Assembly: GCA_900128565.1 (NCBI GenBank)
Contig: LT635965.1
Location: forward strand, 1-30,714
Length of the DNA: 30,714 bases
Direction of reading: 5' to 3'
From: Stramenopiles sp. TOSAG23-6
Lineage: Eukaryota; Sar
The first letter of the stretch is position 1, and the number at the start of each line of letters is the position of its first letter. Shown one piece after another: positions 1,240 through 30,714 of this stretch. The notes below the pieces were generated by a model, which saw only the letters and a list, made by a program, of their open reading frames with translations, had not been told where the DNA came from and did not search any database. A program made the position numbers and the translations under genes.

Positions 1240-4200
1240 ATGCTTCCTGATTTGCTGGCAGGCGCACCACATGATAGTAACTGTATCGTCGCTTCCGAAT
1301 GCGGTTTGCGCGCTATAATTCGATACGTTGTTTATCTAGACGGGAAACCTGTTGATTGTGATACGGCACGCGGTGGAGTTGTGTCAGTTTTAGGATTTCT
1401 CGATGGTAGTGTATTATATTCCGTGTATGCGCAGGATATACATGTATCACCTCAGCTTTCCTTATTATTTGACTCTCTTGACAGTGTTGAGAAAGATCTC
1501 CACTCAAGTTTAATTCCGTGTTTTCCATTAGTTGGTGAGTCTCTGCGGTCACCTCCATCGTTTCTATCTACATGTTGGTCACCACCATTACCAAGTGCGA
1601 GAGGTGGTGCTTTATGTAGTTTGTTAACGACAGTTACGTCTCTAGGCACTGCTTCAATTCACAAACCAATATCTGTTTGTGGTGGAATTCGTGGTCTCAT
1701 TTCCTCCGTTGAAGAACTTGTGAATATTTCGGATATGCTAGGTACATACCTGTCTACATCTGTATGGTCGGAAAGAAGTGACAATGTTGTTCATTCGTCA
1801 AATAGTGATAATAGTAATAGTAATATCGAGTCAAAGCAAAGTCATGATTCCAACCCTAGTATTCTATCCTACAAGGAGAAGAGAAAAAGAATTGATTCAC
1901 TTTCCGTACAATGTGCTTCATGGACTTCAAAATTATATCCTGACTCGGATAAAAAATCTGTATATACTGGCCAAGTCATTTTAAGTATAGGAAGTAAAGA
2001 TGGCTGTGTAACTTTGTTTAATTGGTCTGCTTCAGATTTTATGTGTAACCTTAACTCAAACACTAATGAGACTATAAAAACAAAATTATTGTCCAATGCT
2101 AGAGTAAAACAATTTTCTGCATATACGTGTGGTTGGGTATCAAATATTAGTTTTGGGGGTATTATTGAAGAATCTTCAACAACAAATACAGTCAAAACTG
2201 TGCTTGCCACAGCTTCCTGTCAGGGTAGTATAAAAATTTGGAATATTCTTTTAAAGAAAAACTCGAGTACTTTTTCTATGTCATGTACACAAAGAGCTGT
2301 TGTCACTGTAAATGACTGGCAGACAATAGACTCTTTATCATGGTACAATCCTGTGAATAACTGCCCTTCCATTGGTTCATTGCTTTCAATAGTCCAATCA
2401 AAGAAACCAAAAATTTGGTCTTTACATGCAGATGCATTTATTTCTCATGATGACTTCCAGAATGTGGGAAATATAGCTTCAACTGTGTGGTTACAACCTA
2501 GATCATTAACTCGCATAACTTCTAAAGCTCTTAGTAGTGAAAACTTTAATTCATCTATGAGTACAACACTTGGAATATCTCAGTCAAATACGGATGGAAT
2601 GATGCCTTCATCGTATTTGTTGAACGCAAATTCTAATGACCAGACTTCTAGCGAAAAACCAAAGACAAGTGATGATGTTTTCATCAATACTCCCGATCTC
2701 ATTGAAGACATTTCTAAAGAAGCACGTATATTACTTGAACAAAATAAGAAAAATGATAATAATAATAGATTGAACACTTCAAGTAACACTCAACAAACTC
2801 GAAATTCATTAGATACACAATTAGGAATGGATCCAAATAAAGCTTTTTTATGTATTGTACGAAATATTCAATCAAAGTTTCAAAACAATGTCATGGGAAA
2901 ATTTAATGGTAACAGTGTTGTTGAGTGGTGGGAGTGTACACATAATAATAATACATATTCTTTACAACGTAAATCATCTCACCCGTTACTGTCAGAGGAT
3001 GGACCTGTAGCCGGCTTGTGCCTTTCAACATCTGGAATAAATCAAACTATTGTACATAGCGCTTCTATTTCTACTTTCGAGCGTCATAAAGTAATGCTAT
3101 ATAGTAGACCTCATATACATATCCGCTTGATGCCTTCCGTAATTTCCAATTCATTTCAAAACTCTGAATTGGTGATCAATGCATTTGAACACTACGTAAA
3201 CGGTACAACTCAGCAGCAACAAGAATCAAAGTCTAATTTGCCAAGTTCCATGCCTCTTATTCTATGGGATTCTATAGAAATGTTAAACAGAAATTTAAAT
3301 GTATTATTACAAAAGGAATCTTTGATATCTTCGCGAAAGTTTTGGTGTCTTGAGGAATATGAAAATTTCAAAAAAACTATGCTTAATTTGTTACATGAAA
3401 GTCCTACATCTACAAGTAGAAATGTATCAACATCTACGAAACGTTTAGGTCATATTCTTCGATGGATTAAATTATGGAAGTTTATATTAATATGGATGGA
3501 TCGATCACGAATTCCATTTGATGAATGGCCTCCTCCTCTTCGAAGTATGCTTGGTGCGAATAAGCATCGTGAAATTTTGATACAAAGATTGGATAACATT
3601 ATCAAATGTACTTGGCTCATTCAGGTAATGAATACTATTTTGTCTAATACAAAAAGAGGCAATTTGTTAAACGATAATGAGAATTCTCTTGCTGAATCGA
3701 TTGCACATTCAGCATTACACGAAATCAGTCAAGTTTCAAATTTATATTCGAATGTGGATAGTAAGAAGGAGAATTCACAATATGTAAAAAAATCGTCAAA
3801 TTCTCTTGTATCTGTCATGAAAGATTTTGCAGATTTGATTTTGAAACGTTTTTCTTCTTCAGGGAATAACCACAAAACAATTGATATGGATGTATGTTTT
3901 ATTTTTTTTCAATTTCGAATTTAGTTTTCGTACGAAATTTTGTGCCTAACGATTTTATTTTTGAAATATTTTTCCAAAATACATTGGTATATCAATGAAA
4001 ATGAAGGTTCATGTTGTAATCGTAGTTTATTCACTTTACTGCCGCTAGATGAAAAGGTAAGAAATAATGGTATGAATCATAATATTTGGTTTCGTTGTCC
4101 AAGTTGCTCAAGAGAAGCCAAATGTAACGTAAACACTCAGGAAAAAAACAACAGTAATTTTATTCTTACTATTATCAAAAATAATTGTATGAATAATGAT

Positions 4201-4251
4201 GTTTTATTATGTCCCTTTTGTGATGTTGAATTGCAATCAGTCACAAATTGA
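1240..4251 (+). CDS. Probable TFIIIC subunit (WD40 / C-terminal zinc finger, GTF3C4-like)
   Basis: Exons 1240-3891 and 3985-4251 give about 972 residues. Seen: WD40-like blades in the first 370 residues, for example GSKDGCVTLFNW and ATASCQGSIKIWN; a long low-complexity Asn/Ser middle; and a C-terminal Cys cluster (CCNRSLFTLLPL, RCPSC, then LLCPFC) that only becomes contiguous when the intron is removed. A WD40 front with a C-terminal zinc finger, C-x-R-x-L-x-x-LPL then a CxxC, recalls the TFIIIC 90 kDa (delta) family, which acts in RNA polymerase III transcription. The match is by pattern only, so it could be another WD40/zinc-finger protein. Exon 1 would otherwise run 11 codons into the intron and stop at TAG. 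Confidence 0.5.
3892..3984 (+). repeat. Introner-like intron in the TFIIIC-like gene (93 bp)
   Basis: Begins GTATGTTTTATT, contains TTCGTACGAAATTTTG then TGCCTAACGA, and ends TTTTTCCAAAATACAT. It is nearly the same sequence as the copy at 30414-30506 in an unrelated gene. Flanks: ATG GAT before, TGG TAT after; AT before the GT is repeated at the 3' end. The first downstream AG gives the wrong frame. Confidence 0.85.
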
Positions 4252-4381
4252 TGTATTAATTGACTATTTTATAGATAAAAGATAACTTGTAAAAATGTTT
4301 GTTATGTCACATTTTCAATATAAAAAAAACATTTTTTTATGATTTAAACTTCTTCTTCTTTGAACATTTTCAGTTGGTATG

Positions 4382-7142
4382 CTACGATGTGATGTTGCTA
4401 TCGGAATCTCCAAAAGATGTTAGATTTGTTAATCTTGCAACTTCATCGGCCAGTCGCTCATTCCAAGCTTCATTACTCGAATTTTGTTCAATATTTTGAA
4501 CGTCATTTCTTGAATTTTCTGAAAATATTTGATTATTCATTTGATCGTATTGTGAAGGTAAAGAGGTGTTATATGCAGAAGGAAATTTTTCATCTTGTGT
4601 ATACGCTACATCATCATAATTATTATAAAAATTCGGTACATTCGGTACATATGAAGATTTTGCCATGAAATTCATTTGTCCATTCATTTGTCCATTCATT
4701 TGTCCATTCATTTGTCCATTCATTTGAGATATTGAAGTTGTACCAACATTAGGACCATTGACAAATGAATCATTCAGAAAATTACTATTTGGATTATTCA
4801 GAAAATTACTATTTGGATTATTCAATCTTTCAGAATTATGAGAAATATTCTGCGAAGTTGTTTTATCATAACTTGCACTTATTTTTGCGGTAATAACTTC
4901 TGCTGGAGTTTTACTCCGATGTAAATTTGAGTTGATATTACTACTACTATCATTTGTTGTTGTTGCTACATTAGTTAACCACTGTTCCCTAAGTTTACCG
5001 AGTTGAATTTTCAATGATAATTCTGCATCATTATCAACACCAACTGTAGATGTTTCAGAAATATTTGTACCAAATTTCGTACCTAATAAATTCAAGTAAT
5101 TAGTATTCATATTTGAATTAGTATTCATATTTGAATTAGTATTCATATTTGAAGTAGTATTCATATTTGAATATCTATTAGAACCAGGTAACACATTGGA
5201 AGCATTTATACTAGAATTTCTTACTTGAGCAGGTGATAAATTCTGCGCGTCATTAGTAAAAGATTGATTATTACCATTATACTGTTGATTTGAATTAGAA
5301 TGCATTGAATCATTAAACACTGTATTTGTATAATTTGGGCGATTATTATTATTATTCGAATTTGTTGAAGGGTTAGGGTTATTTTTGTGAGACGAAATAT
5401 CATGAGAAAATCGGCATTTTTTTCCTTTTTTACAGCGACCTTTGGCAAAATAAGTACACATAGGCTTTTGTTTCTTCATATTTGTTTTTGTATATTTTGT
5501 ATTTCGATTTGAAATATTATTATTATTCATATTATGAGCACCTTGAAAGCCTGCATTGAGATCGGTTTGTGTATCATGAGGATATACGCCTGATGAATCG
5601 TTTTTCCATGATGAAAATTGTTTTTTTGGTGATACAAATCGATTTTTTGGATTAGGGTTAGGGTTTGGTGATACAAATCGATTTTTTGGATGAGTTGTAT
5701 TACCTCTACTTGGAGAAAACTGTTGATAATTATTCGTTTTTTGCTTCTGCTTTCTTAATTGTTCAGAACGAGTTTTTGCTAGTAAATTTTGTAGATCGTT
5801 TTTTGATCCATTTTGTTGTTGTTTCAATCGATTCATTTCTTGTATTTTTTGCATTTGTTGTCTCTGAGATTCCCTTTCAAGTTTTAGAGATTCTGAGATA
5901 GCCAAGCTCAGATCATCTTCCTCCTTTTTACGTCGCGCTATTTCTAATTTATGAAGTCTCTCACGATCTCGTCTTTGAATTCGCTGTTTTTCGGCTAATT
6001 CTTGTTTTTTAAGTGCTTCTTTGAGGTCTTTCTGTTTCTTCTGTTTTTTAAGTGCTTCTTTGAGGTCTTTCTGTTTCTTCTGTGCAGATAGAACATGTTG
6101 TAGTGAACGTTTTACACTCTTTTCTGAGTGATTTGATGCTCGTCTTGCACACTGTGCTGCATGTTGAGTAGCAAACTTCACTTTTTGCCTTTTTTTCATT
6201 TTTCTCTCGTTCTACAAGTTTTAACGATGATGCTAGAGCAGCTTTCATACTCAATTCTTCTTGTTTTTTAATTCGAATTTCATCTGCACGTGCTTGTTCA
6301 CGCTTTCTTTCGGCATCTTCCTTTGCTTTTCGTTCTATTTCTCTAGCTTTTTTTTGAGATTTTTCAAGATTGATTCGTTTTTGTTCAGCTATTTTCTTTT
6401 TTTCTTCATCTTTGGCCTTCGCTTTGGCTGCTTTAGCCAGTTCACGTTCTTTCTTTTTTTCCATTTGTCGTTTTTTCTTTCTGTCTTTCTTACGCTGTTT
6501 CTTAGTTCGTTTATCTTTCTCTTTTTCCTCTTCTCTTAGTAACTCTTCAGCAGCTTTGTCCGCCGCAGCACTTCTTTCAGCAAAACTTTCTTGAGGTTTT
6601 TCACTTTCTTGAGAACTTGCTCTACGGCATCGATTACTTGAATTATTATGGTATGATCTACTATAGTAGTATTCGTCTTCTGATTCCTCATCGTCACTAG
6701 CAAACATCATTTCTCCCATCATTCCAATAGGAATTGGCATACCGTTCATAAATACAAAAGGAATCCCTGGAGAACTATCGCGTCCATATTGACCTCTTCT
6801 TCTTCGACTACGACGATTACCCTGGTGAAATACGTTACGAAGTTTCATTTCCATCATCATTTCGAATATATGAGACATAAACTCTTCCCCATCTATGCAA
6901 CAGTCATCTTCATCAGTTTCCTCACCCCGCAGTTCTTCAGTCTCTAATCTCTGAAAGGCTTCACTAAGTGCCTGGAATTTCTCAGTTGCTACATCTGTTG
7001 GGTCTGCCGTATTTTTATCAGGATGCAACTGTAACGCTCTAGTACGATATGCTTTTTTTACGGCTGAATCAGAATTTGCGCTGTTGGGCGACAACTGTAG
7101 TATTTCGAGCGCTTCACTGCGGCTCATGCGATCCGCTGCCAT
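4382..7142 (-). CDS. J-domain, UIM and CCCH zinc-finger protein (one gene with a frame break, or two fused frames)
   Basis: The first frame (7142-6048) has a J domain at residues 7-70 with the HPD motif (LHPDKN), which stimulates Hsp70 ATPase, then a Lys/Glu-rich helix and a UIM-like ELSMKAALASSLKLVERE. The second frame (6199-4382) continues the charged helix, has a UIM-like EEDDLSLAISESLKLERE, then a CCCH finger CTYFAKGRCKKGKKCRFSH (C-x7-C-x5-C-x3-H) near 5450-5400, and an Asn/Ser-rich tail with several short repeats. The second frame is +1 to the first, and the switch falls in an A-rich stretch near 6181-6206. The first frame's own tail turns Cys/Thr-rich and unlike the rest, so I read this as one gene with an indel or frameshift. 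Ubiquitin and RNA binding are inferred from the motifs. Confidence 0.6.
4670..4725. repeat. 12-bp in-frame repeat, about 4-5 units
   Basis: Repeats of CATTTGTCCATT on plus encode GQMN units in the Asn-rich tail of the J/CCCH protein (minus strand). Confidence 0.9.
5098..5170. repeat. 18-bp in-frame repeat, about 4 units
   Basis: The unit TAGTATTCATATTTGAAT (plus strand) is repeated with small changes. It encodes NMNTNS-type units in the J/CCCH protein. Confidence 0.85.
5625..5690. repeat. Duplicated segment carrying telomere-like motifs
   Basis: GGTGATACAAATCGATTTTT occurs twice, separated by TTAGGGTTAGGGTTT (5652-5666). On the minus strand this encodes repeated KNRFVSP blocks joined by NPNPNP. 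Confidence 0.8.
6009..6085. repeat. Tandem duplication encoding KKQKDLKEAL twice
   Basis: About 36 bases (TTTTTTAAGTGCTTCTTTGA onward) are repeated almost exactly in the charged helix of the J/CCCH protein. Confidence 0.85.
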
Positions 7143-12919: not shown

Positions 12920-15110
12920 TTAAAGTCCTATCCAATGCGACTGACCATTTACATTATGTACACTTGACAATACAGGTGTCACTACTGACCATTCGTACCA
13001 AACTTTTGTACTTGAAACACAACGCCACATATGAAGTTCGATTTCTTCACCCTTTTTACAATAAAATGGTGTTTTTAAAGGTAAGTACAATGGGAACCAA
13101 CTAAACATTCCTAAAGAAAAAGTCTTTGGATTAATTGATATAAAAGCATCACAATCCTCTGGAGATAAAATTTCATAATTTTGTTCAATTGATTTTTTTG
13201 ATTTTGGTACGGAATTTTGTACTATTTTACTTTTACTTTCTTGTCGTTGGTGTAAAGGAGATTCAAAATAACCAGCAAAGCCATGAACCATTGTCCCTTC
13301 TTTTTGTTTGAATTTTAAAATTTTGTACCTGTTATTATTTATATCACTTATAGGACGTAAAGGATGATTAAATGTAAAACAAGGTTTTGCTTCAGCTAAT
13401 TGTTTAAAATTATGCATTTTAACCACATATCCAGTTTCAAATGGTTTTTTTGTTGGATGGGAATGAGCCCGCACCTTATTCCATAATTTTGATGATGTTA
13501 TTGGTGCAACAAATGATGTATATTGACAAGGAATACTGACACCCGTATCTTTCAAAAATGTTTGAACACCATATAAACATTCAGGTGAAAGCTCATGAAT
13601 TGTGGAAAAATATTTCAAAAAAATCTAAAAAAATTTGTTAGGTACAAAATTTCTTATGAAAAAATAAATTCGAAATTGAAAAAAAAGTAAAACATACATT
13701 ATCACTAAAGGAACCTAGTAATTCACTAATCATTATATCTGCCTTGACAGGTGCGTTCCAATGACGCATATCACAGGACACAATAACGACGTCTTCACCC
13801 CACTGTAAATCATTATGAAGGCTTTTTAATGTAACTACTGCATTTTGATTTTTTTCAACTGCATAAATCTTCACTTTTTGGCCGACTTTCTCAGAAGCTC
13901 TTAATGCAGCTCTTATGAGTGGACCTCTACCAGCACCAACAACCATGATGATTGGTACTAATGTACCTGTTCCCTCTCTTATATGACGTTTTTTAAGTTC
14001 TTCTAAAGCATGAAAAGTCGCATTTTCATACTCTTTATATTTGACTGGATCACGCTCAAATACTTCATACGTCGCCGATTCTAAATTGTCCATTAAAGGC
14101 TGTAGTGGAGCTTGCAACACATCATAATACGGTTCCTCAAATAAATCAGCTTCTGTAGGTACATCCTGAGTCTTACTCATATGATTGATATATAATGCAT
14201 ACACTCCTAATCCGTTATTGTGAAGACTATTACCTCGAATAAGCACCTGAACTTTAGAACTCATTAAAGCTCTTAAAATTTTTTGGTGTTGACGAGACAA
14301 AGTTGGAAAACCAGAGGAATTTGTCAGAAAAATTTCTGTTGGAATAACTACTGCTTTTATAGGTTCAGATAGCCAACGGGTTTGTTCTTCCCATGAAGGT
14401 AGATTTTTAGTGAATACTAGACACACAAAAAGACTTGGGGAGTGGTTGCACATACAACGAAAACGATTCCACGCTTCCCAAGGGTCAGCCGATACGTCAA
14501 GAGAAGGTTGGTTGTCATTAGACATATCAGATATATCACTTGTCAATGTATTCCTATATGCCAGTGGTACTTCTACCCACATTTGAGCATGTCCAGGTAT
14601 TGCAACCTTTTGGCTGATACAGCGAGCATAGTTTATACAGTTGTAGTAAAGAGGTGGAAGGAGAATAGCTGGAACGGATAAGTGTGTGGCCCACGCCAAC
14701 TCTTGAAATAAAGTTTTCTCAGCAGTGGCACGGACATTATCTGAAACAGAGTCCAAATTAAACCATCGAGATATTTTACCTACTATCATAGTGGTCCATT
14801 GTCCACTAGGCATCACTTTATCCGTTCGTGTAAATGGGCCTTGGCGTCCCGCTGATATGCCGTTGTCATCCCGATGGAAACGAGGATGCACTAATGGAGC
14901 TACAACAAAATCAAAGTGTTCCTTTACGGCATTATTTAAACTTTCCACTAAATCAGGGCAACAGTGCAGGTCTAATCCAGTGAATGTCCGAGGGCGACTT
15001 GCAGTCATTGCTCGTAAAGTACTACTTTTTGTAGTAGAGGTAGGTAAACTTAACACTACTACCTGGTGGATGATCATTGATCTGTCACCCGGTGACACGT
15101 GTTCACACAT
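12920..15110 (-). CDS. PRMT5: Protein arginine methyltransferase 5
   Basis: Type II arginine methyltransferase, making symmetric dimethylarginine on histones and Sm proteins. Exon 1 is 15110-13698, exon 2 is 13594-12920; about 695 residues. Order: N-terminal TIM-barrel domain (GLDLHC, FDFVVAPLVHPRF, EPIKAVVIPTEIFLTN), then PLMDNLESATYEVFERDP, SAM-binding GAGRGPL at 392, and the double-E loop SELLGSFSDN-ELSPEC with E463 and E472. The C-terminal barrel follows (GMFSWFP, KVWYEW, final IGL). Intron removal restores the nine-residue spacing of the two catalytic glutamates seen in human PRMT5. A poorly conserved insertion of about 35 residues precedes GMFSWFP. Met at 1, 12 or 35 could be the start. 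It diverges from the secreted-protein gene with 112 bases between starts. Confidence 0.96.
13595..13697 (-). repeat. Introner-like intron in PRMT5 (103 bp)
   Basis: On the minus strand it begins GTATGTTTTAC, has TTCATAAGAAATTTTGTACC and CTAACAAA, and ends ATATTTTTCCACAATTCAT. The exon before ends GAT-AAT and the next begins GAG-CTT. An internal TTTTTTTAG (an ordinary 3' site) would keep frame but insert ten residues between the catalytic glutamates, so the end at CAT|GAG is preferred. Confidence 0.85.
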
Positions 15111-15222: not shown

Positions 15223-18166
15223 ATGCTTCGAGTTATCCTTCTTTGTATTTGTTTGAAAAATGCCAATGGTAATATGAGTATGATGTGGCCTACTGGTGAA
15301 GTAAACTTTAATTATGGCAACAACGGGCTCACATCATGGTCATTTTACATTAGAGCTTTCAATCTTGCCCCAGGTGGTTTTGGGGATGCCGAGTTTGGGT
15401 GGGGTCAGTGGTCGAAACCATCATCCACAGATATAAACTTTAATGATGTTTGTGCGATCAATCCGTTAGGTTTTACTTGTGAGGATGGTGAGAATGGAGG
15501 CGCAGGTTGCATCACATATGACCGCGAGTCACTGCCAAATACTCAAACGGCATGTGAAAAGTCGTGTAAAAATGAAAGTGACGAAGAGAAGAACGGGGTT
15601 TCGAACTGCCTAAAGTCCCAATGGACAGACAATTTAAAACAATTTTGTGGTTCAGCTGATTATTCTGAACGTGAGAAATGTGAATATTGGATTTGTGGAA
15701 ATGATAATAAGGGAGGTGTCGTTGGTTCTATTGAGGGAGGAATGGGTTATTGGCCATATACTTTAGAGAAGAAACAGGTAACGTGGATGCTTCCAGGTGC
15801 TACAACATCTAATTATGAAATGTTTGCTGGAACATTCCTTGTATGTTTTTTTTCTATTTCGTGGTTTTGAATGCTTTTTGTGGTGAGGTTCAATTGGACG
15901 ATTCACTTTTAAAAAAAAAGAATTGTAGAGCAAATTTCATACCTAACAAATTTCGAATTTGACATATTTTTTCAGAATACTTGCTGATCAAGCACAGCCA
16001 TGTAATAATTTGGGCGGGGCTGTTCGAATATCAAACCATCTTCTTGTACCAAGTGATATGGTGAGCTTTGAAGGTGGTGATGTGATAGATGGATTTTTAG
16101 GATATATGCTTGCTGATACACCAATAGGAAAACGTAGTGAAACTGATGATGTGAATAATTGGACTATTATCATTGATACTGAAAACTTTTCTGGTCCTGT
16201 ACTTTACATTTCAAATTGGTTTTGGGAAACACGAGTAAATTGGCATCCTAAATCAAAGAGTTGGAGTCACCCTAATGCAAAAGTTGGTTACATTGCACGT
16301 GGGGCTGAAGGTAAAATTATGGGTAAAATTTCAAATACCATAAAAAACTCAAATGATGAATATTGGGCATATACTACACGATGGGGATTACCTAAAGATT
16401 CCACAAAAATAAATGAAGAATATACTTCAACAATAATGACTGGGCATTCTCAGTATGAGGAACCAACTCAAGCAGGTGAGAAAAATTGGATTGAAAACAC
16501 AATTGAACCAATTCTTAGTGGTAACAAAACAGTAGAAACAATGCCTTCAGATGAAATTTTAAATAAATCAAAATCTGCTCGAATTCAACCAAAATGTAAT
16601 CAAGTTGATCGCTCTGGTATTTCAAAGGGTGAAATGCATTTAATACATGAAAACACCAAAACAACTTTTGTAGGTTTTGGGGTCAATTACGATGATCCAT
16701 CAGATTCAGATAATAAAACAAATGGATGTCCTATCCGGTATAAGCTTGATAAAACAATAATGGATTGTACAACGAGAAGTGATTTATGTCTTGCACCGAA
16801 ATATCTCACCATCAAAAATACTTCTGGAGAAGCAGAGCATCTTTCCACTGTTAAAAAGGATAGTGATGTCCCAACAGATGTGAAGTCACAATTAGAGAAG
16901 GAAAATCCGCTTCCAAAAGGTGATTCGCGAGGTCTTCGGAATGCAACAGGGTATTACTATGAGCCAGCAAATGAGGAAAAACGATGTTTCAATGATCCTG
17001 GTCCATCAGATCAAAAATTATATTGTGTACGAACCAACACAAAAAGTTGGATTGGGTATAAATGGTATAAATTTGTTGATCAACCAGAATTAACAAATAT
17101 TTTTGCATCAATTCCGACACCTGAAGAAAGAAAAAAAGTAAAGGACTTTATGCAAGCTCGAATTGAAAGACTTCATTCTTATCAAAATTCAGTTAAGGGT
17201 GGAGTTCAATGGTTTGATGCACCTGGTCAATTACCTTCGAAAAAAGTAAAGATTGACGAAAATTTACTAATACAACCACCTGCTGGAATGGAAATTGGAT
17301 ATGTTCCAATTCCTATTTATCAAAAACTTAGAAAAAAGCCGAAAAATTGTGATGTTGTTATTGGATCAAAAACAACAGAACCTGATCCATTGCCAAATGA
17401 TTATTTTTCAAAATATCCTGGACAAACAAGAGATCGAGAAAAATTTACTTGTAAAAATGATGCAAACGCAAAGAGTTTGAATCCAGCTAAATTTTATCCC
17501 GGTACAATTTTTCCAACTCCACCAAAAGGTACAACAGCTACCGTCCAAGAACGGATTGCATATAAATATGAAGTACCTACATTAGGTAGTGATGACGTAA
17601 TAAAAAAAGATGATACCGGTAGTGATGACGTAATAAAAAAAGATGATACCGGTAGTGATGACGTAATAAAAAAAGATGATACCGGTAGTGATGACGTAAT
17701 AAAAAAAGATGATACCAGTAAAGATGCAGAAAAGGAATTCAATCCAAACGCAAAAATATCATTTAGTGCTGACATGACAGTCACATACAATATGGAATAT
17801 GATCCTAGTGTTAACACTGCAAAACTTAAGAGTGAGATTGTGACTGCAGTTGAAACGGGAGGTCTACTATCCGTGAAAAATGGTACAAATGGAGTGAATA
17901 TTTATGATGGTTCTCTCAAAGCAGATTTTACTGTACAGATGACTGCTCCCGAATCAGAGAAAAGTGAACTTCAGTTGTTGGGAAAAGAAATGGAAGCACT
18001 AACAAAAGATCGATTGTTACTGGCGAGGGTCAATAATGGTTTAGTTCCATCTGTTACTGCACAAAATGTAAGAGTGTCTCCATTGCGTGCTAATGAAACT
18101 TCATCGAAAGAATTTAGATCATACGCTAGTTTAAGCTTTTGTATTATTTTAATGTTTACCTTCTAA
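15223..18166 (+). CDS. Large secreted or surface protein with internal repeats, family not recognised
   Basis: Exons 15223-15840 and 15983-18166 give about 933 residues. The N terminus MLRVILLCICLKNANG is a likely signal peptide. The first half is Trp/Gly/Cys-rich with many N-x-S/T sites; exon joining gives MFAGTFL-ADQAQPCNNLGG. Near the C terminus are four identical GSDDVIKKDDT units, then a region reading FSADMTVTYNMEY, and a hydrophobic end (LSFCIILMFTF) after SKEFRSYAS, compatible with a GPI-anchor signal or tail anchor. No catalytic motif seen. I infer a cell-surface or extracellular protein. The start is chosen because it opens the signal peptide. Confidence 0.8.
15841..15982 (+). repeat. 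Divergent introner-like intron in the secreted-protein gene (142 bp)
   Basis: Starts GTATGTTTTTTTTC after TTC-CTT, has CAAATTTCATACCTAACAAA, and ends CATATTTTTTCAGAATACTT before GCT-GAT. Ending at the CAG (15975) breaks the frame and meets TGA; ending seven bases later, after AATACTT, restores it. CTT is present at both edges. About 45 extra bases in the middle distinguish it from the 93-bp copies. Confidence 0.75.
17585..17716. repeat. 33-bp in-frame repeat, 4 identical units
   Basis: Four tandem copies encoding GSDDVIKKDDT with identical codons, including a run of seven A in each. The lack of silent differences points to very recent expansion or homogenisation. Confidence 0.97.
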
Positions 18167-21185: not shown

Positions 21186-23770
21186 ATGGTTACTTCAGAA
21201 AATACGTCAAGTGGTGCATTTGCAACGAAAACATTTTCAGCAACGATTGAAAGTGTAAACACAAGATTTAAAACGGACCAAAATAAACGTATAGTTCAAC
21301 TTCAACATCGCTCCAAAGCGATATCGACAGATGTAGAAAAAATGCGTCACGTGAAACTGAAAGAACGGGAAATATCATTTAAAAAAAAGGATAAGCTAGT
21401 TTGTTTACAACAAAAATATAGTGAATATCGCAGGCAACTAGAAAAAAAAGACAGTTCTATTAGAAGACTTAAACAGCAGATAGCAACCGTCAATGCAAAA
21501 ATTCAGCAACATCAATCGAACCACGAGCTTTATAGTAGCAAGTCACACAGTTCACAGAGTAGCTTATATGGAAACGTACGAAATGATCTGTATAGAATTA
21601 AAAGCAATGTAAGCCAAGAGAGAACTACTCAGTCTGATTTACTTGACAATTTGAAAATATCAGATGAAGAGCGCGTGAAACTTCAAACAATGTCTTTACA
21701 GGTATATTCATCTTTTTTAGATGATAAAAAAAAGAAAATGAAGCAGGACATTATAATTGATTCTTTACTAGATGAATGTATAGAATTAGAAAAAGATATC
21801 AAAAAAGTTTCAGAAAAAAAAATTAAATTGCTAGAAAAAAAACACATTCTTTCAAATTTATTTTCGATATTAACTGATAAAGCAGAAGCATTTACACATA
21901 GTTCAAAAAACTTAATGAATAGTCGAGTTAAAGATGTTGAAATAGGTAAAGAAAAACTTCAGAAATCAAGACTAATATGTTTTATTTTTTTTCAAATTCG
22001 AATTTTTTTTTCATACGTAATTTCGTACCTAACGATTTTTTTTTGAAATATTTTTCCAAAATACAAGTATACGTAGAAATGAAACATTTTGCAAATATGT
22101 TAAAGAATGCAAAAAGTCCAACTATGAAGGAAATACGACATAAACGTAATATCATAACTGAATATAAACAAAAATTGTTTAATTGTAAGCAACATAATGC
22201 TGTATTGTATGACATTTTGTTGAAGCAAACTAATAATAGAAAAAGTGATTATACTAATTGTACAGAAAAATCAAATTCATTGGATACTCAGCAGTTAGAA
22301 TGTGTAACCCTAACCACTAAAAAGAATATACAGGTAGAAAAAGGAAAATTAGAAAATTGTGTTTCACAATTTGAAGCAACAAAGAAAACACTTGTAGAGG
22401 CACGTTTTTTAGCTAGCAAATTATGTACAAAATTAGATATCAAAACAAGTCGTGTGGAACGAATTGATGGGCAAATAAAGAAATCATGTAGTCGTAAGGA
22501 ACATTTAGAAACAAAAATAAAATCAACCATAGAAAACACATTACATTACAGAAAGAAACACAAAAATTTAAAAAAGAAATTTTTATTAGATTATAAGCAA
22601 TGTGAAAAACTGCAGTCAATTATTGATGCTGCAAAATATCGTATTAAAAATGTTGAGTCTACTATAACACAGAGAATGATATCCTTACAATGTAAAACAC
22701 AAAATGTAATGAAGGTAAAGCGCAACAATTCACAGAAATCAAAATTGTTAGACAATTCTAAAGAAAGTAATTTAATGATCAGTAAGAAAAAATTAAATTT
22801 AAAAAGTAAAATAAAACAATATGAAGAACTGGAATCATATGCACTGACGAACCACACAAAGTTTTCATTGCGTTTGGATGAAATGAAGGAAACAATATCA
22901 AAGTTATACAAAAGTACGGAAAGTTATACAGATATATTGCAACGCAAGGTAAATCGCGCTTCCGATATAAATTGTCAAATAAAGCAGTGCAAACTTGAAC
23001 AATACAACTGTTTGGAAATTTATAAAATACGAAAAACACTATGTGAAGCTTTAGTTGGCCAGCATTTGAAGTGCAAAGAAAGTCAAAGAGTTACTTTAGA
23101 AAAAATGAATACATCTTTGAATACCTACCAAAGAGAATTGCAAAAGTTGAAAGAAAAAACAGTTTCATTCGGTGTAAAGCTTCAATATGTAAATGTATCA
23201 AAACAGAATTGTGATAAAATTCGTAGATTATCTCAAACATGTATGAGAGAGGCCCAAAAAAATCATTTTGCAGTATTAAAAGAATCATCTAGCACTATGA
23301 CACCCGCATCGTTGGAATCGAATATTGCTCGTTGTGACAATAAAAATTCTACAATTGATAAAAATTATGTTTTATTAATACAAACACTAAGAAAAAGAGA
23401 GGAAAGTTCCATTTTAACAAATACGTTTCTAAAGAAAAATATACAAAACAATGAGAAAATGAGACATCGGTTGGGTCAAGTACAAATAATAAAAAAGAAA
23501 TTGTTGGAGGATTGTGGAAATTCAACAATTGAATGGCAAAATAAAATATCAAAAATGAAGATAAAAACTCTAAAGATTAAATCACAAATTGGCCGTATAA
23601 AGTCCAGAGAATCTAACTTAAAGAAAATGCTCGATGAGGAAAATCAAATTTCAAAACATTTAGAGTTTTTCGCAAAAAAATGGAAAAAAAAAGAAAAAGC
23701 AATTCTAAGAAAACTTGAAATACTTGAAAATAGTACCACTCCTAACCCTAGTAGTAACGTCTACCCGTGA
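21186..23770 (+). CDS. Long coiled-coil protein, function unknown
   Basis: Exons about 21186-21974 and 22067-23770 give about 830 residues. Nearly all is Lys/Glu/Gln/Ser-rich helix with heptad character (for example LKIKSQIGRIKSRESNLKK). No signal peptide, membrane segment or enzyme motif. Without intron removal the first frame stops 24 codons into the element (TGA). The architecture recalls flagellar or centriolar coiled-coil proteins, but I cannot assign an ortholog. The C terminus ends with Pro/Asn from an exon-embedded CCTAACCCTAG motif. The start codon is the first Met of the open frame, after an AT-rich leader. Confidence 0.8.
21975..22066 (+). repeat. Introner-like intron in the coiled-coil gene (92 bp), 5' GT mutated
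   Basis: Starts ATATGTTTTATTTT where other copies read GTATGTTTTATT, has ATTTCGTACCTAACGATT, and ends TTTTTCCAAAATACAA before GTA-TAC. The family boundary (after CTA) keeps frame. A conventional alternative, GT at 21979 to AG at 22067, also keeps frame (ATA-T|TA-TAC), so this copy may be spliced in the ordinary way. Confidence 0.8.
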
Positions 23771-23779
23771 TAGTACAAA

Positions 23780-23793: not shown

Positions 23794-23936
23794 TTCTGGG
23801 TTCTACACTTTAAAAAAATTGTAACTACAAATTTTCAAAACTTTATTATAAATTGTATAATTTTATAATTTCATTACTAAAGACGATTTTCACTCTTAAA
23901 TATATTGTACTATTCATTATACTATAAGTAGTATTT

Positions 23937-25175
23937 CTACTTCATTTCAATACCAACATGGATCAGGTTTGTTCCTAAAAAAGTATTTGTAGTCGTCGAA
24001 ATATTATCCCCGGATCCAACTTTAACAATAGCTCCTTGAAGCAAACCATTAGGGTTAGGGTTACTATCATCATTTTTTCCCCCCCCACTATCAGAGTTTA
24101 CTCCTGATGTCTCATTAATTATAGACTCTAATTCTTTGAGAAGATGTGAATCAGCAAATAATATATTTCGTGACATGTTCTTTTTGTGGGAAATATTATT
24201 TTTTATAGTATTTTCCTCACAAGTACTATTAAGTTGTGCAGATGTCATGGAGGCTTCTAAAGCAGCAAGGGTTAGTTTTGCATCAGGAATTGGGCTAGGT
24301 AGGACAATAGATGCACCTGTCGTTAAAGCAGAAATAAAACCAAAACCCATACCAAATGAATGGTTCAAAGGCACTGAAAGACAAATAACATCGTCCGGTG
24401 TTAAATCTAGTGAATTGGCAGCTTTTTGTCCCATGTGTTGAAGAGCTTCCTGACTAAAACCATGAGAAAAATTATAAAATGCCATCGTACTCTGTCGAGA
24501 ACCGCGACCTCCCATCATCCATACACCACTATTTTGGCAATCATGAAAATCCCATACTTGTTCAGCTCCTTGAGCTACATTATTATCAACTTCAACTTCT
24601 GGCTGTTGTTCTCGTGGGAGATCGCCAAGAGCATGAGCTTTCCCTTTCACTCCCCACGCACCATGTACCACTACTGTTGGTGCCTGAGCACCTGCTGAAA
24701 CAGCAATATCTTTAGCAACGTGAGAATCTTCTATCGATACCACGACACCTTTGCACCTACTACCCCAAGTATCAAAACACTTCCGTAGGCCACATTCGTC
24801 TTTTACTGTTGCTATAGCTACACCTATTTGGGCAGCGGCAAGTTGAGTCAAAATATTCTCAACACAATTTGGAAGCCACATAACCAATACATCACCTTCT
24901 ACTAAATCCATTTCATCCTCCATTATCGATGATAACGCAGATGAGCGTTCAAAAACGTCCGTGAATGAAAGAGTTTCTTGCTGATGATGACTTGTCAAGA
25001 ATGAGGACTGATCCAACTCGCTGGAAACACGCCATACTGTCTGAGCAAGAGGTTCTGTTTCAAGACAAGGATTTGGAATCCACGACGTCATTGACCTGTA
25101 AAATGGACGATATCTATACTGTGGTAATCTCTTCGAACATTGAGCCAAATGGCTCAACATAATTCGAAAAGACAT
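23937..25175 (-). CDS. Degenerate, C-terminally short AMP-binding (acyl-CoA synthetase-like) protein
   Basis: 412 residues, against roughly 500-600 in active acyl-CoA synthetases. The N terminus is Arg/Ser/Tyr-rich (CSKRLPQYRYRPFYRSM), suggesting a mitochondrial or organellar presequence. Then come family features: LVEGDVLVMWLPNCVENILT, LAAAQIGVAIATV, and SVPLNHSFGMGFGFISALTT with GASIVLPSP. The phosphate-binding signature expected as T-S-G-T-T-G-x-P-K-G is absent; that place reads MMGGRGSRQSTMAFYN. The protein stops near where the Y-G-x-T-E motif is expected (IHVGIEMK), so the lid domain is missing. It may be a non-catalytic paralogue or a decaying gene. The frame is intact. Confidence 0.65.
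   Translation of the reverse strand: MSFRIMLSHLAQCSKRLPQYRYRPFYRSMTSWIPNPCLETEPLAQTVWRVSSELDQSSFLTSHHQQETLSFTDVFERSSALSSIMEDEMDLVEGDVLVMWLPNCVENILTQLAAAQIGVAIATVKDECGLRKCFDTWGSRCKGVVVSIEDSHVAKDIAVSAGAQAPTVVVHGAWGVKGKAHALGDLPREQQPEVEVDNNVAQGAEQVWDFHDCQNSGVWMMGGRGSRQSTMAFYNFSHGFSQEALQHMGQKAANSLDLTPDDVICLSVPLNHSFGMGFGFISALTTGASIVLPSPIPDAKLTLAALEASMTSAQLNSTCEENTIKNNISHKKNMSRNILFADSHLLKELESIINETSGVNSDSGGGKNDDSNPNPNGLLQGAIVKVGSGDNISTTTNTFLGTNLIHVGIEMK
24049..24063. repeat. Telomere-like motif inside an exon
   Basis: TTAGGGTTAGGGTTA within the AMP-binding-like gene. On the minus strand it encodes NPNPN in a low-complexity stretch (DDSNPNPNG) next to GGGK. Confidence 0.85.
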
Positions 25176-25289
25176 TGTATGTGTTCCTACGGACCTATTT
25201 ACCTACTAACTTCGCGTGTTTTTAAGAGAACTATGAACACACATGTCGATGTACGACTTGGCCAAAATTGCCAAAAAAAAAAAAAATTC

Positions 25290-25319
25290 CCTAGGCTAGG
25301 GTTGGGGGTTAGGGTTAAT
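25290..25319. repeat. Interstitial telomere-like motif, imperfect
   Basis: CTAGGCTAGGGTTGGGGGTT followed by AGGGTTAAT, in the divergent spacer between the AMP-binding-like and ZIP-like genes and next to a 14-base A-run. Confidence 0.75.
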
Positions 25320-25461
25320 TACATCCGTTATTTATCGGCAAAATAAAGATACTAAAAAATGGAGACTATATCATATTGTATATTGATACACAAAGGATAC
25401 GCGTATAAAATTAAAAAATATATTTTGTGTGTGCTTAATTTTCGCAAATTCATATTATTAA

Positions 25462-26802
25462 ATGGGCTTTATTTCATTTTTAAAGGAGACCTTTGGAACA
25501 GTTGGTGGCTCGGCTTTAATCTCAATTATTCCAGCCACAGCAATGTTGATAGGTTATTTCGTTGAGTTAGGTATCAATCCTGGAAATTCAACGCACGCAG
25601 CTATCCAGAATTTTTCTGCTGGACTTATTATTGCTAGTGTATCAATTGAATTGTTTCCTCTTTTAGAATTAGAAGTCAGGAAGAAATTCGACAATGAAAT
25701 TGCTTCGATTATAGGTTTTGGGTTGGGAATATTTTTTATGGTTGCTATAGACCAGTTTGTTCGCCTCAGTAGAGAAGTCACTAAAATTACACCCGTCACA
25801 GATGTTGAACACGCAAGCAAAAAAAACAATTCTCCCGATCGAGACTACGAAACAGATACTCCTTTACTACTTGAACATTTTCAATCAAAATATTATTCAA
25901 AAGTAGAATGTAAATACAAACTCATGGAACAATTCAAGAAAACTTCTCAATTCATAAAAAACGTTGACCTGGAGGACCGCACAAGTATATCAGAAAATAC
26001 CTCCCTTATAAATATAGCGTTACAGTACACTCGTCGTAGTCTCGACGAACATAACGGAAAATATAAGTTAGCCGCTAGTGATATTAACATTATGCGACAT
26101 TTATTCAACGAAATTTCTAAACATATTACGAAATTAGAACAAAACGTTATGCAAATAGACTCAAAAGCTGGAGTCTTGGCAATACCTGAAAAATCTCATA
26201 TAAACAAAGCATTAGATGATATTGAAAAACTGATCGATAAATTACAAGCTCATGTACACCCATCTGCTTCACGAGCGAGGAGGTGGTTTAAACCTGTCAT
26301 AATTACAAAAACTGATTCTCATTTAGAAGCTATAAATTGGGATTTTATACTTGGTGTTTGTGTGGATGCATCTGTTGATGGATTTCTATGTTCTTTCGTA
26401 TTTGTAGAAAAAGAAAAAAATGGACTAACTATGGCGATAACAACTTGTTTAGAAATGGCTTTCCTTGCAATAACATTTGCTACATATATACGAAATGGAA
26501 CCAAAAGTGTGGCAAAAATTATTTCGATTTGTTCTTTACCTCCTCTTTTTCTCATACTTTTTGGTATACTCGGAGCATACCTAGGAACCGTTACCTCATC
26601 GCATACTCCTTTATTTCAAGGATTAATCTCGTTCCATATAATGACACTTTTATATTTAGTGACCCAAGAATTACTTATTGAAGCACACATGACTGAACTA
26701 GGAGAAAATACACATATCAATGCATTTATTTTTTTAGGAATGATATTTGCAGTAATTGTTGACCGATGTCTCTTTTATGAATTCGGGTTTGACTTTAAAT
26801 AA
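25462..26802 (+). CDS. ZIP-like multi-pass membrane protein (possible metal transporter)
   Basis: 446 residues. About three N-terminal membrane segments (IPATAMLIGYFVEL; NFSAGLIIASVSIELFP; IGFGLGIFFMVAI), a central hydrophilic domain of about 190 residues that is largely helical, then about five C-terminal segments. The NFSAGLIIASVSIELFP segment resembles ZIP TM2 (AGVxLxxAFxHLLP), and DASVDGFLCSFVF with LEMAFLAITFA resembles ZIP TM4/TM5. The His residues that bind metal in ZIP proteins (H-N in TM4, H-E in TM5) are absent, so metal transport is unproven. Start chosen at the Met preceding the first membrane segment. Confidence 0.5.
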   Translation: MGFISFLKETFGTVGGSALISIIPATAMLIGYFVELGINPGNSTHAAIQNFSAGLIIASVSIELFPLLELEVRKKFDNEIASIIGFGLGIFFMVAIDQFVRLSREVTKITPVTDVEHASKKNNSPDRDYETDTPLLLEHFQSKYYSKVECKYKLMEQFKKTSQFIKNVDLEDRTSISENTSLINIALQYTRRSLDEHNGKYKLAASDINIMRHLFNEISKHITKLEQNVMQIDSKAGVLAIPEKSHINKALDDIEKLIDKLQAHVHPSASRARRWFKPVIITKTDSHLEAINWDFILGVCVDASVDGFLCSFVFVEKEKNGLTMAITTCLEMAFLAITFATYIRNGTKSVAKIISICSLPPLFLILFGILGAYLGTVTSSHTPLFQGLISFHIMTLLYLVTQELLIEAHMTELGENTHINAFIFLGMIFAVIVDRCLFYEFGFDFK

Positions 26803-27024
26803 TTCCGGGAAATCTGATTGTTGATCTCAATTATCCAAATTAAGTGTTAATGAATATTAACAAACTCTACGGTAGTATATTCCAGTGAATCTCTGTATTG
26901 ATTTCCTATAGTCACAAATCACTTCAAAGCGATGCTACTTTAAAAAAATAATTTTCTAGTAGAGAAATATATAAAATACATCTTATACGATTGATTCTTT
27001 ATTCTCTCAAATACTTTCAAAGAA

Positions 27025-29075
27025 TCAATTTTCAATACAGTTTACTCTATAACAATGGAATCTGTTTGCTAATTTCCGTACGTTGTTTAATTTTGTGCGT
27101 GTTTCGGTTTCTTCTGCGATTAACACGTGGCATTGTTTTGAACATTTGTAGCAAGACATAAGCTTTACTGCCCAGGCTCCTGACTTTATTCTATTTGTAT
27201 TTTTCCCCTCTGTTCCAGTATAAAACCATTGAAATAAATCTTTTACAGAACTATTACATATATTTGATGAAAGAGTAAACTTGGTATACCAAATTGCTAA
27301 ATCACTCAAAAGACTAATGGTGGAATTAATAGTGGCAAGTGAATCACAAAGCCACTTTTTATATTCCATATGTAAAAAATCTATTTGCTGCATTTGTTGA
27401 ATTTTTATATCATTTATATTGATTGATTGATTGTCAATATTTTCTAAAATTTCTATTTGGGAAAAGGCAAAGTGACTGAAATCATTAAATATTTCAAAAC
27501 CTTTCATACATAAAACACTCAATTGTTTTTTTTTGAAAGGTGATATATTAACATTAGTGAGATTATCATTGGCATTTGATTTTTTTGATTGCTTTGTTAA
27601 AGGTGAAAGAATTTCTGTGCGTTGATTCATCGTGTTCCTAGATTTTATGTCGTTAGATTTCATCTTAGTCTTTGGTATTGATTCTTCAATATTGACTTTA
27701 CTAGATTCTTCAAATTCTTCAATATTACTTGATTCTTCAATATTGACTTTACTAGATTCTTCAAATTCTTCAATATTACTTGATTCTTCAATATTGACTT
27801 TACTAGATACTTCAAATTCTTCAATATTACTCGATTCTTCAATATTGACTTCACTCTCAGAATTCAGTTCTGCCCAAGACTCCATCATATCATCATCATC
27901 ATCATCATCATCTTCATATGTTTCATTTTCATCATCTTCTTGTGCACTACTACTTGACTCATTATCACTATCATGTAATGCTTTTACCGTTTCTAATATT
28001 TCCACAAGCTTTCGACGAGCCAACCAAACTTTACCTTTCAAGGAGTCGTTAATATATTTTGTGAAAAAATATTTTTTTTTTTGTAAAAATATTTGTTAGC
28101 TATGAAATTTCGTATGAAAAAAAAATTATGAAAAAAAAATCGATTTTTAAAACGTACATAGGCATGCTGTAATAATTCACCTGATGTCGGTCTATCAGCT
28201 GGATCCTTCTGTAAACATATCTCAAGAAAACTGGACAATAATGTACCTGCCATTTCTTCATCTCGTAGTCTAGGTGAAGGTAAAGAAGGGATTTTTGTAA
28301 GTGCTTGCATGGGAACCAAATCAAAGTTGGGTGGTTCCATTTCAGCCATTTCGATGGCAGTTACAGCGAGTGACCAAATATCGGCAGATGCATCATATTC
28401 ATTTCCATCTATGACTTCAGGAGCCATCCAATACGGAGTTCCAACAAATGTGCTACTTTTTGCTACGTTGCCACTCAGCATTGTAGAAACACCAAAATCT
28501 GCCATTTTGGCTACTCCACCAGAAGCTAATAAAATATTTCCGCCCTTGATATCTCGGTGTATAATTTTCTTACTATGTAGATATGAAAGACCACGCAAAC
28601 TATCTTGTAATATTATTGAAATTTCATTAGGTGTAAACGGAATACCACGGCGATTGTATATGTCACTGACAGAGCCGTAAACACATTGCTCCATTGTGAT
28701 CCAAACAGCATTCTCTTTATAATAAGTACCTATGTACCGTACAATATTAGGATGAGAACATGCTCGTAACATTTCGATTTCGTCTTTCATCCCTACAAGT
28801 TCTTCACGTCTTCGACCCTTGTGTGTGGGAAGTCGAATGACTTTAATTGCAACAATCTGATTTGTCTCTAAATGCTCAGCCTGATAAACAGCGCCAAATG
28901 AACCTTTTCCTAGGCGATCAAGAAGTTTAAATAGAAGTGTTGGGTCAGTCCGACTCAATGGGATACCTCGCTTTAACAAAGATGTGCGGCGAGCCATTGA
29001 CTCGCGGGCCGGCTTGATTCGGCGCTTTCCTCGCTTCATTTGGTCTAGTTTTGTTATGATAAGTAATGCATTCAA
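27025..29075 (-). CDS. Ste20-group serine/threonine kinase (MST/GCK-like)
   Basis: Exons about 29075-28158 and 28053-27025; about 648 residues. The kinase domain has LGKGSFGAV (ATP loop), VAIKVI (catalytic Lys), HRDIKGGNILL (catalytic loop, the Ste20-type GGN form), DFGVST and GTPYWMAPEVI, the Ste20 signature. The domain end ELLQHAY-INDSLKGK is formed across the intron. After it come a short basic helix, an acidic Ser/Asp/Glu stretch, a 51-bp repeat block, and a tail without known domain. Such kinases act upstream of MAPK or NDR/LATS-type pathways in the cytosol. The start may be 29075 or the Met at 29039. Its promoter is shared with the thioesterase gene. Confidence 0.88.
27683..27850. repeat. 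51-bp in-frame repeat, about 3.3 units
   Basis: Encodes units of VNIEESSNIEEFEESSK on the minus strand in the kinase tail. Units differ by few bases. The plus strand is also open here, by chance. Confidence 0.9.
28054..28157 (-). repeat. Introner-like intron in the kinase gene (about 104 bp)
   Basis: On the minus strand it begins GTACGTTTTAAA, has CATACGAAATTTCATAGCTAACAA in two pieces, and ends ATTTTTTCACAAAATAT before ATT-AAC. The local ATATAT makes the exact end ambiguous by a few bases. The first AGs downstream give the wrong frame, whereas this end gives QHAY-INDSLKGK. TAT lies at both edges. Confidence 0.8.
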
Positions 29076-29417
29076 TTTTAAACTTCAGAAGTTCATTCAT
29101 GAATAATTCATTTTGATTTGAGAGATTTGAAGAAGTTTGAAGAAGTTGACGCGAAGTCAGACATCAACTCAAGTTTCGAATTTCTAATTTAATTTGAAAC
29201 ACGAAAAAATCTGAAAATAGTAATGTCAAAAAACGAGGGTGGCAAATATTTTGCTTTTCTTTCTCCTCTTGCAATTAACTTTTTATTCACTGTATTGTTG
29301 AAATTTTTTGAGGAAATTTTGACACAAACACCACAACAAACAAAAGCAAAAGTTGAAAAAAACAAGGAGAACTTTTCTTTTTTGAAGGTACGAAGAACGC
29401 ATCATAAAACGTCCAAA
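29076..29417. other. Intergenic region, 342 bp, divergent promoters
   Basis: Lies between the kinase and thioesterase starts. It has a duplicated TTTGAAGAAG (near 29126-29145) and TTCGAATTTCTAATTTAATT near 29175, but no full intron core. No supported gene. Confidence 0.5.
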
Positions 29418-30714
29418 ATGTCAAATTCTCCACCAGCGGACAAGCTAACATCTGTTGATTTAAGTAGGCCACATTACTCAATGGATAGTGCCATCCGTGA
29501 AAGAACACGAAGTAACTCTTTTACCGAGTCATTACGTCCTTCTCCACCTATTGCCTACAATTGGACATCTGTTGCTGTGCCAAGAACTGCATATAATGTG
29601 CGCTTGTACTGTATACCTCACGCGGGTGCGTTTGGCACGAATCCTTATTCTAATTGGGGGAAACTCCTTCCTGAAACAATTGAGCAAGTCACAATTTTAC
29701 CTGGTGGAAAAGCGCGACGTGACTCTATCTCTGATGGGCGACAAGACTATGAAAACGATGCCACGTCTATAGTTGCAGGAATCATTCAAATATTAGCAAT
29801 GTGTGATAGACCATTTTGTCTTTTTGGTCACTCTGCGGGAGCTACTTTGGCTTTACAAGTTGTGATATCGCTTCAGCGCCAAGGTGCAGTATTGCCTATT
29901 AAACTATTTTTATCAGGATGCTCTCCACCACAAAAATACATTCCATTGCGATCCGATTGGAAAGAAGAAAAAGTTTTATGCAAATTAATTCGTGAGTGGG
30001 GAGGAACACCAGAAGATGTTTTACAAGATATCGAACTCAAAAAATTGTTGTTGAATCGTCTTCGAGCCGATCTCGCTTGCGCGGAACAATCATCTAGACT
30101 CATAAAACATGCTCTCGCCAAAATGTCAATACAGTGTGATGTTACCATTATTGGTGGGAAAGATGATCGAACGGTACCAGTAGCAGAATTAATTCACTGG
30201 GAATCTCATATTGGTGATGAACAAACCTGCTGTACAATGAAAATAAAAATCTTTCCGGGTGGTCATTTCTATCTTGATGAAACATCTCAATTGTCAAATT
30301 CAATTTCTAATTTACATAAATGGTTAAATGACGAAATTAGATTTGCTTTACAAAATGAACTTGAACGTGCAAATTCACAAATTGAGCTATGGAATTCAAA
30401 TACTATGGAATATGTATGTTTTATTTTTTTTCAAATTAGATTTTTTTTTTCGTACGAAATTTTGTACCTAACGATTTTTGTTTTCAAATATTTTTCCAAA
30501 ATACATACACCATATACACCGAAATATGATAGGAAGAAGATGCGTGTTCCTGCTTGGTGTGATCGAATATTATGGAAAGAAAAGAATAACAATACTAATA
30601 ATAATAATAACAATAATAATACTATTCATAATAATAATTCAAAAGTTGAACTTTTACATTATGTATGTTTTATTTTTTTTCAAATTCGAATTTTTTTTTC
30701 GTACGAAATTTTGT
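29418..30714 (+). CDS. Type II thioesterase-like hydrolase joined to an inositol 5-phosphatase-type segment (3' end beyond window)
   Basis: Exon 1 is 29418-30413 (332 residues), exon 2 is 30507-30662, then another intron. Exon 1 is an alpha/beta-hydrolase of the type II thioesterase class that frees misprimed carriers in polyketide/nonribosomal synthesis: LYCIPHAGAFG, GHSAG with nucleophile Ser near residue 139, Asp near 249 (GGKDDRTVPV) and His near 283 (GGHFYL). Exon 2 reads TPYTPKYDRKKM then RVPAWCDRILW, the C-terminal signature of inositol polyphosphate 5-phosphatases, then an Asn run and KVELLHY. The 5-phosphatase N-terminal half is not seen. Reading is open from 29418 to the window end even through the introns. 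Confidence 0.75.
   Translation, partial: MSNSPPADKLTSVDLSRPHYSMDSAIRERTRSNSFTESLRPSPPIAYNWTSVAVPRTAYNVRLYCIPHAGAFGTNPYSNWGKLLPETIEQVTILPGGKARRDSISDGRQDYENDATSIVAGIIQILAMCDRPFCLFGHSAGATLALQVVISLQRQGAVLPIKLFLSGCSPPQKYIPLRSDWKEEKVLCKLIREWGGTPEDVLQDIELKKLLLNRLRADLACAEQSSRLIKHALAKMSIQCDVTIIGGKDDRTVPVAELIHWESHIGDEQTCCTMKIKIFPGGHFYLDETSQLSNSISNLHKWLNDEIRFALQNELERANSQIELWNSNTMEYVCFIFFQIRFFFSYEILYLTIFVFKYFSKIHTPYTPKYDRKKMRVPAWCDRILWKEKNNNTNNNNNNNNTIHNNNSKVELLHYVCFIFFQIRIFFSYEIL
30414..30506 (+). repeat. Introner-like intron in the thioesterase gene (93 bp)
   Basis: Begins GTATGTTTTATTTT, core TTCGTACGAAATTTTGTACC then TAACGA, ends TTTTTCCAAAATACAT before ACA-CCA. TAT precedes and ACAT ends it. Length is 31 codons with no in-frame stop. 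Removing up to the nearest in-frame AG would delete the KYD of the 5-phosphatase signature. Confidence 0.85.
30587..30642. repeat. AAT-rich microsatellite encoding an Asn run
   Basis: Interrupted AAT/AAC triplets encode a long Asn stretch directly after the 5-phosphatase signature. Confidence 0.9.
30663..30714 (+). repeat. Introner-like intron, 5' part, second in the thioesterase gene
   Basis: GTATGTTTTATTTT through TTCGTACGAAATTTTGT to the window end, after TTA-CAT-TAT. It is almost identical to the copy 250 bases upstream. Confidence 0.85.

Follow-up and report, generated by a model that had tools for sequence, protein, structure and literature searches.

Candidate introners with two-base duplications and non-AG, mostly CAT, acceptors in a stramenopile assembly

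The window analysed here is the whole of contig LT635965.1 (30,714 nucleotides, nt) from Stramenopiles sp. TOSAG23-6 (GenBank assembly GCA_900128565.1), and the introns seen in its genes are copies of one repeated element, about 90-110 nt long. Each copy typically begins with GTATGT or GTACGT and continues with the branch motif TACCTAAC, a T-rich tract and AATAC followed by two bases, termed NN below. The original prediction, made from the window alone, had placed six introns whose 3' boundaries fall after TAC-NN instead of at AG, with NN usually repeating the end of the upstream exon.

Copies in the window and in the assembly

Slashes mark exon-intron borders in what follows. On the forward strand, a copy at 3892..3984 interrupts a TFIIIC/WD40-like gene (..GAT/GTATGT...AATACAT/TGG..), with AT at the end of both exon and intron and an open joined frame. 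A copy at 15841..15982 lies in a gene for a secreted protein (..CTT/GTATGT...AATACTT/GCT..; TT at both ends), and one at 30414..30506 lies in a thioesterase or inositol-polyphosphate-phosphatase-like (IP5-phosphatase) gene (..TAT/GTATGT...AATACAT/ACA..; AT at both ends). A coiled-coil gene holds a copy at 21975..22066 with a decayed 5' end (..CTA/ATATGT...AATACAA/GTA..; TA and AA). On the reverse strand, the copy in the PRMT5 gene is located at 13595..13697 (..AAT/GTATGT...AATTCAT/GAG..; AT at both ends; protein junction SELLGSFSDN/ELSPEC), and a protein-kinase gene carries a member of the GTACGT sub-family at 28054..28157 (..TAT/GTACGT...CACAAAATAT/ATT..), which has the branch-like sequence TAGCTAAC and ends in AAT-AT where others have TAC-AT. 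The last complete copy, at 237..416 on the same strand, interrupts a gene that we take to be TERT-like following the earlier annotation (..CAC/GTATTT...TAGTACAT/TAT..; AC and AT; junction GDEMMH/YLLLHK) and contains a 15-bp (base pair) tandem repeat. The 5' parts of two further copies are truncated by the window ends, one at 1..60 on the reverse strand (..CAAT/GTATGTTTTT..TACCTAACAA) and one at 30663..30714 on the forward strand (..TAT/GTATGTTTTA..). Reconstruction of all six junctions first proposed, and of a seventh in the coiled-coil gene, gave a single open frame in each case with the cut as described, and the last two exon bases recur at the intron end in five of the seven, with the TERT-like and coiled-coil copies differing. 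No GT-AG intron was seen within the window in a search that was not exhaustive.

The assembly searched is partial and comprises 8,027,113 bases in 408 contigs, of which the window is contig 15. A strict pattern (GTATGTTT..CCTAAC..ATAC) matched 526 times (253 forward and 273 reverse), and its reversed control matched 1 and 0 times; for a second sub-family (GTACGTTTTCA..CCTAAC..AATAC) there were 95 matches (50 and 45), with 0 and 0 for the reversed control. Since some sites match the strict patterns twice, and since contigs C13 and C14 look like near copies and C2 and C37 like palindromes, distinct insertions are fewer than the raw pattern counts; these contigs, suggested by hits at corresponding positions, are probably amplification or assembly artefacts. 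Viral contigs contained no exact match to two element patterns.

Copies were characterised in a test set consisting of the window and loci L001-L110 (195,761 bases), the loci being picked for holding copies and not as a random genome sample. The copy caller relied on the eight bases at the start, a branch motif (CTAAC or CTAAT preceded by two non-G bases) and 14 bases ending in TAC; NN and reading frame played no part. Duplicates were dropped by flank, which left 137 copies with distinct flanks. Among these, GT forms the first two bases in 128, TACCTAAC is present in 129 with a caller demanding less, and in 135 the intron end lies 36-50 nt from where CTAAC begins. The final three bases read CAT in 107 copies, and the final two read AG in 4. 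Most copies possess the GT 5' splice site and the branch motif of canonical introns and lack the canonical 3' AG. In forming a large set of closely similar introns at gene positions unrelated to one another in one genome, they resemble introners.

Two-base duplication and position of the 3' end

NN equals the end of the upstream exon in 109 of the 137 copies. It is AT in 114, and in 14 of the 23 others it still repeats the exon end. When exon ends and intron ends were compared with shuffled pairs, matches were in excess at -2 (118 observed, 99.5 expected, z 9.1) and at -1 (124 observed, 115.3 expected, z 7.0), and the absolute value of z was at most 1.8 at every other offset from 8 upstream to 7 downstream. 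Excess matching confined to these two positions is what a 2-bp target-site duplication would leave behind; a target-site duplication had been suggested from the window.

A different account of the spread of the elements, compatible with their being spliced, is reverse splicing at proto-splice sites, in which the two-base identity would reflect an exon preference for CAT/G and not a duplication. The site flanks share with ordinary splice sites an enrichment in C at -3 (z 6.4) and in G at +1 (z 8.8), and the AT/..AT/ arrangement parallels the AG/..AG/ of ordinary introns, the consensus CAT/GTATGT...CAT/G resembling the ordinary CAG/GT...CAG/G with T replacing G. However, the full CATG is found in only 11 of the 137 copies, which qualifies this enrichment, and both the repetition of non-AT dinucleotides and the within-copy matching above shuffled pairs at the two positions argue for a duplication. 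Reverse splicing is considered unlikely, and the flank enrichment could reflect target preference, spliceosomal exon preference, or both.

The position of the 3' end was assessed in the 98 of 137 copies that were scorable for frame, i.e., with a clear reading frame on both sides. Cutting before GT and after TAC-NN joined 86 of these in frame, and the other two frames received 6 copies each; with a cruder earlier caller, the same rule kept 46 of 55 in frame. By contrast, use of the first AG at least 12 nt past the branch A gave 32 of 98 in frame, and use of the first AG at or beyond the called end gave 29 of 98, both at chance level. The frame counts thus favour the unusual non-AG 3' splice choice that the original prediction had put forward. 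At the level of residues, the alignment with human PRMT5 is ungapped across the PRMT5 junction, and a DEAD-box helicase shows no gap at its junction (EPY/IHRLGRTAR), although its alignment skips one residue a short way upstream.

Under the more conventional view, these would be ordinary GT-AG introns with the AG a few bases away, and the TAC-NN boundary would be an artefact of judgement by eye. AG does end 4 of the 137 copies, and a public model of the PRMT5 gene is one residue short, reading SDN-LSPEC as an in-frame AG 3 nt downstream would produce. Against this stand the chance-level performance of both AG rules and two individual genes: the AG choice in PRMT5 deletes a Glu that aligns with E444 of human PRMT5, and a good TTTTCAG in the secreted-protein gene, ending 7 nt before the junction, leads to a stop after three codons. 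The claim that nearby AGs break frame or harm conserved motifs was borne out by these results, and a GT-AG explanation is improbable. Human E444 is presumably one of the two catalytic glutamates of PRMT5.

Avoidance of AG between branch and end was tried as evidence and rejected. An AG is skipped in 12 of the 137 copies, yet the 5' part of the element is similarly depleted in AG, so that avoidance near the 3' end shows nothing. A census of 166 transitions between open reading frames was too noisy for counting canonical introns. As a separate observation, made by eye at about 0-480 on the minus strand of locus L025, a transporter gene (SLC37-like, as we take it to be) has a seeming acceptor ..GGACAT/GTATTTTTCAG.. 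and an unused CAG downstream.

The remaining question of position is which two bases leave. It had been proposed that the cut could equally be read two bases earlier, giving AT-AC type ends. Such AT-AC (or NN-AC) introns might be removed by a minor-type spliceosome, and in the 109 copies with identical dinucleotides both readings do yield the same mRNA. In the 28 copies with unlike NN, the earlier cut produces a stop in three genes (L065, L079, and L102), and the cut before GT produces a stop in one, L046, whose end was mis-set by the caller; of the rest, 4 show no amino-acid change and 20 a residue change with no stop. L106, also one of the 28, may join two genes and was left unused. In L065 the GT cut retains the first of the two W residues in LEWW, a MATE motif conserved in solved structures. 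In L041 it retains the H that closes ADMLNH, a stretch matching ADMCNH in SETD3, where the alternative cuts give Q. Pfam scores were also higher with the GT cut, at 41.8 bits versus 37.6 for a one-base-earlier cut in L079 (Aa_trans) and 49.1 bits versus 47.2 for a two-base-earlier cut in L004 (EF-hand_7); no Pfam family was returned for 3 of the 10 proteins of the cut comparison, including the SETD3-like protein in both versions, or for 4 of 10 proteins in another scan of this analysis. L041 and L102 end in TAC-AG, and GC and GA stand where GT is usual. Taken together, the stops and conserved residues of the unlike-NN copies place the intron at GT...NN, with NN included, usually as GT-AT. The two cuts are therefore not equivalent: U12-type AT-AC boundaries do not hold in the unlike-NN copies, the motif TACCTAAC and the GTATGT start differ from what we take to be the U12 consensus, and the earlier cut is very improbable.

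Orientation, splicing and proposed origin

Relative to the joined frame, 111 of the 137 copies are in sense orientation, 2 are antisense, and 24 are unclear, and in-frame read-through without a stop is possible in 10. Copies that otherwise differ have retained, in the sense orientation only, a branch-like motif together with a 5' splice site of the yeast type, as splicing would require. Elimination at the DNA level, like that of internal eliminated sequences in ciliates with one duplication copy left behind, would preserve frame identically by precise removal of the element and one dinucleotide, but excision independent of orientation does not fit the sense bias, the conserved branch-like motif and GTATGT start would be superfluous, and this explanation is hardly credible.

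The preferred reading, to which a probability of roughly 0.8 is assigned, is that the elements are introners with a 2-bp duplication and non-AG, mostly CAT, acceptors, spliced at GT...NN. Beyond the observed repeat, frame rule, two-base duplication, exact cut, and sense-only orientation, we infer RNA splicing by the major spliceosome, a DNA-transposon origin, and relaxed or altered acceptor recognition. A short non-autonomous mobile element (GTATG...AATAC, with weakly inverted ends) would insert into genes via a 2-bp staggered cut and duplicate a 2-bp target, preferably AT. The element would supply the 5' splice site (GTATGT or GTACGT), the branch motif TACCTAAC, the T-rich tract, and only the C of the 3' splice site, and the duplicated AT beside this terminal C would complete a CAT acceptor. 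Removal of the element and the downstream copy of the duplication by the major spliceosome would then leave the mRNA as it was before the insertion. Instead of YAG, the 3' splice site would be YAT, or TAC plus whichever two bases were duplicated, and such ends may be permitted if recognition of the acceptor is loose or altered, a changed U2AF1 being one example. A bolder proposal, which we hold only tentatively and regard as somewhat less probable than its converse, is that an introner invasion rewrote the 3' splice-site rule of the lineage, with YAT, or whichever two bases follow TAC, serving as its chief acceptor, the insertion target AT rather than AG ending each new intron, and the machinery adapting.

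Of the splicing machinery, PRP8 was located on contig 84 alongside copies of the GTACGT sub-family. Its open frame is free of elements and includes a short N stretch, and 516 of 567 residues of its core are identical to human PRP8, so that the catalytic core looks orthodox.

Several observations weigh against the introner reading. Twelve of the 98 scorable copies do not keep frame when cut at the called end and are explained in part, mis-set ends among them being a nested pair (L038), a decayed end (L046), and a doubled end (L087). Frame sets the intron end modulo 3, and the residue-level proof comes from few genes; the PAN2 alignment is interrupted at the junction by a gap of 5 residues, and PIGA, which has no gap there, combines a weak alignment with a hand-chosen 5' cut. 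The inverted ends GTAT and ATAC, judged by eye, are weak and extend over only about 4 bp. U2, U6, and U2AF1 were not found in the partial assembly by searches that had no working positive control, and these searches revealed no machinery for recognising non-AG ends: the RF00004 profile matched neither the assembly nor any control genome and is hence uninformative, and the U2AF1 protein query, run with no control, matched nothing. Finally, the HSP60 gene on contig 380 (C380; L118, L119, L120, and L124) contains, as judged by eye, three long introns that start with GTAAGT and finish with AG. Contig 380 is 51 kb long; the 23.7 kb of it that were read contain no TACCTAAC, and its codon-usage distance from the window was 0.73, compared with 0.41 each for contigs 308 and 330, 0.70 for contig 75, and 1.18 for contig 169. 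Either this contig is foreign DNA, perhaps from another organism, or it is a part of the genome that the element never reached.

A single U6 match in the assembly was dismissed as chance, as the reversed control also gave one; by eye, the site falls within a WD40-like gene.

Related systems and public gene models

Introners with co-opted splice sites, for example in Chrysochromulina (PNAS 2022, PMC9860276), are described as carrying one splice site and obtaining the other from a duplication, with duplications of 3-9 bp in earlier families. The elements described here are similar in being repeated and intron-generating, with a target-site duplication, a 5' splice site of their own, and a 3' site from the duplication; they differ in that the published account works with GY/AG splice sites and gives a 4 bp duplication for Chrysochromulina, whereas the present elements have a duplication of 2 bp and CAT or another non-AG acceptor. 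Non-canonical introner elements of Amoebophrya have direct repeats of 3-5 nt and inverted repeats of 8-20 nt (BMC Biol 2021, PMC7789003). They share with the present copies repeated introns, direct repeats spanning exon-intron borders, and non-canonical ends, but are reported there without a clear splice signature, unlike the strongly conserved 5' splice site and branch motif, inverted ends of about 4 bp, and dominant CAT seen here. In the tunicate Fritillaria, introns ending in 3'AC or 3'AT occur together with loss of the minor spliceosome and duplicated U2AF genes (NAR 2026, PMC13326754); the non-AG AT- or AC-type 3' ends are alike, and in contrast to the non-GT/AG introns of that report the 5' end here remains GT in 128 of 137 copies.

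No paper combining MAST-3 with introner, or with intron and splice site, was found in the open-licence literature, and among the matches listed there for introner papers since 2019 and for a wider search, none describes the present case by its title and the start of its abstract. Introners and non-AG introns have been described before; what looks new is that, in a stramenopile, the CAT acceptor is furnished by a 2-bp duplication. Should RNA bear this out, a single uncultured lineage would offer hundreds of parallel natural tests of how the spliceosome chooses a 3' end without AG, with the last two intron bases coming from the target and hence varying among tests. Introner searches that demand AG would then miss families, and residues can drop out of the gene models made for such genomes, as the public PRMT5 model lacks the Glu aligned to human E444.

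This PRMT5 model, GSMAST32.ASY1.ANO1.2347.1, is the best EukProt match of the spliced window gene, with 584 of 661 alignment columns identical, 72 gap columns, which are stretches omitted by the public model, and 5 differing columns, all beside gaps. Its GSMAST32 name and Seeleuthner et al. 2018 (PMC5778133) together indicate that the assembly is probably a MAST-3 stramenopile single-cell assembly, either MAST-3A or MAST-3F. The public HSP60 model is also a GSMAST32 entry (458 identical and 169 gap columns). In the two GSMAST32 models seen, P0001 (PRMT5) and P0123, coding stretches that need no intron are omitted, and the HSP60 model includes pieces of intron. Genes of this assembly may have to be modelled anew with non-AG ends permitted. 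PMC5778133 gives few predicted genes for the size of the MAST-3 assemblies (3289 in 18.9 Mb and 2694 in 21.1 Mb) and interprets regions of a MAST-3A dynein heavy chain as pseudogenes; unrecognised non-AG introns could contribute to these low gene counts and pseudogene calls.

Two minor features of the window were noted in addition. The frame of a DnaJ-like gene on the minus strand changes at an overlap of open reading frames (6048-6211) where no element is visible, which would be explained by a sequencing error or a frameshift. Short telomere-like GGGTTAGGG stretches are scattered through the sequences, with 8 matches in the window and 20 in 165 kb of loci L001-L110.

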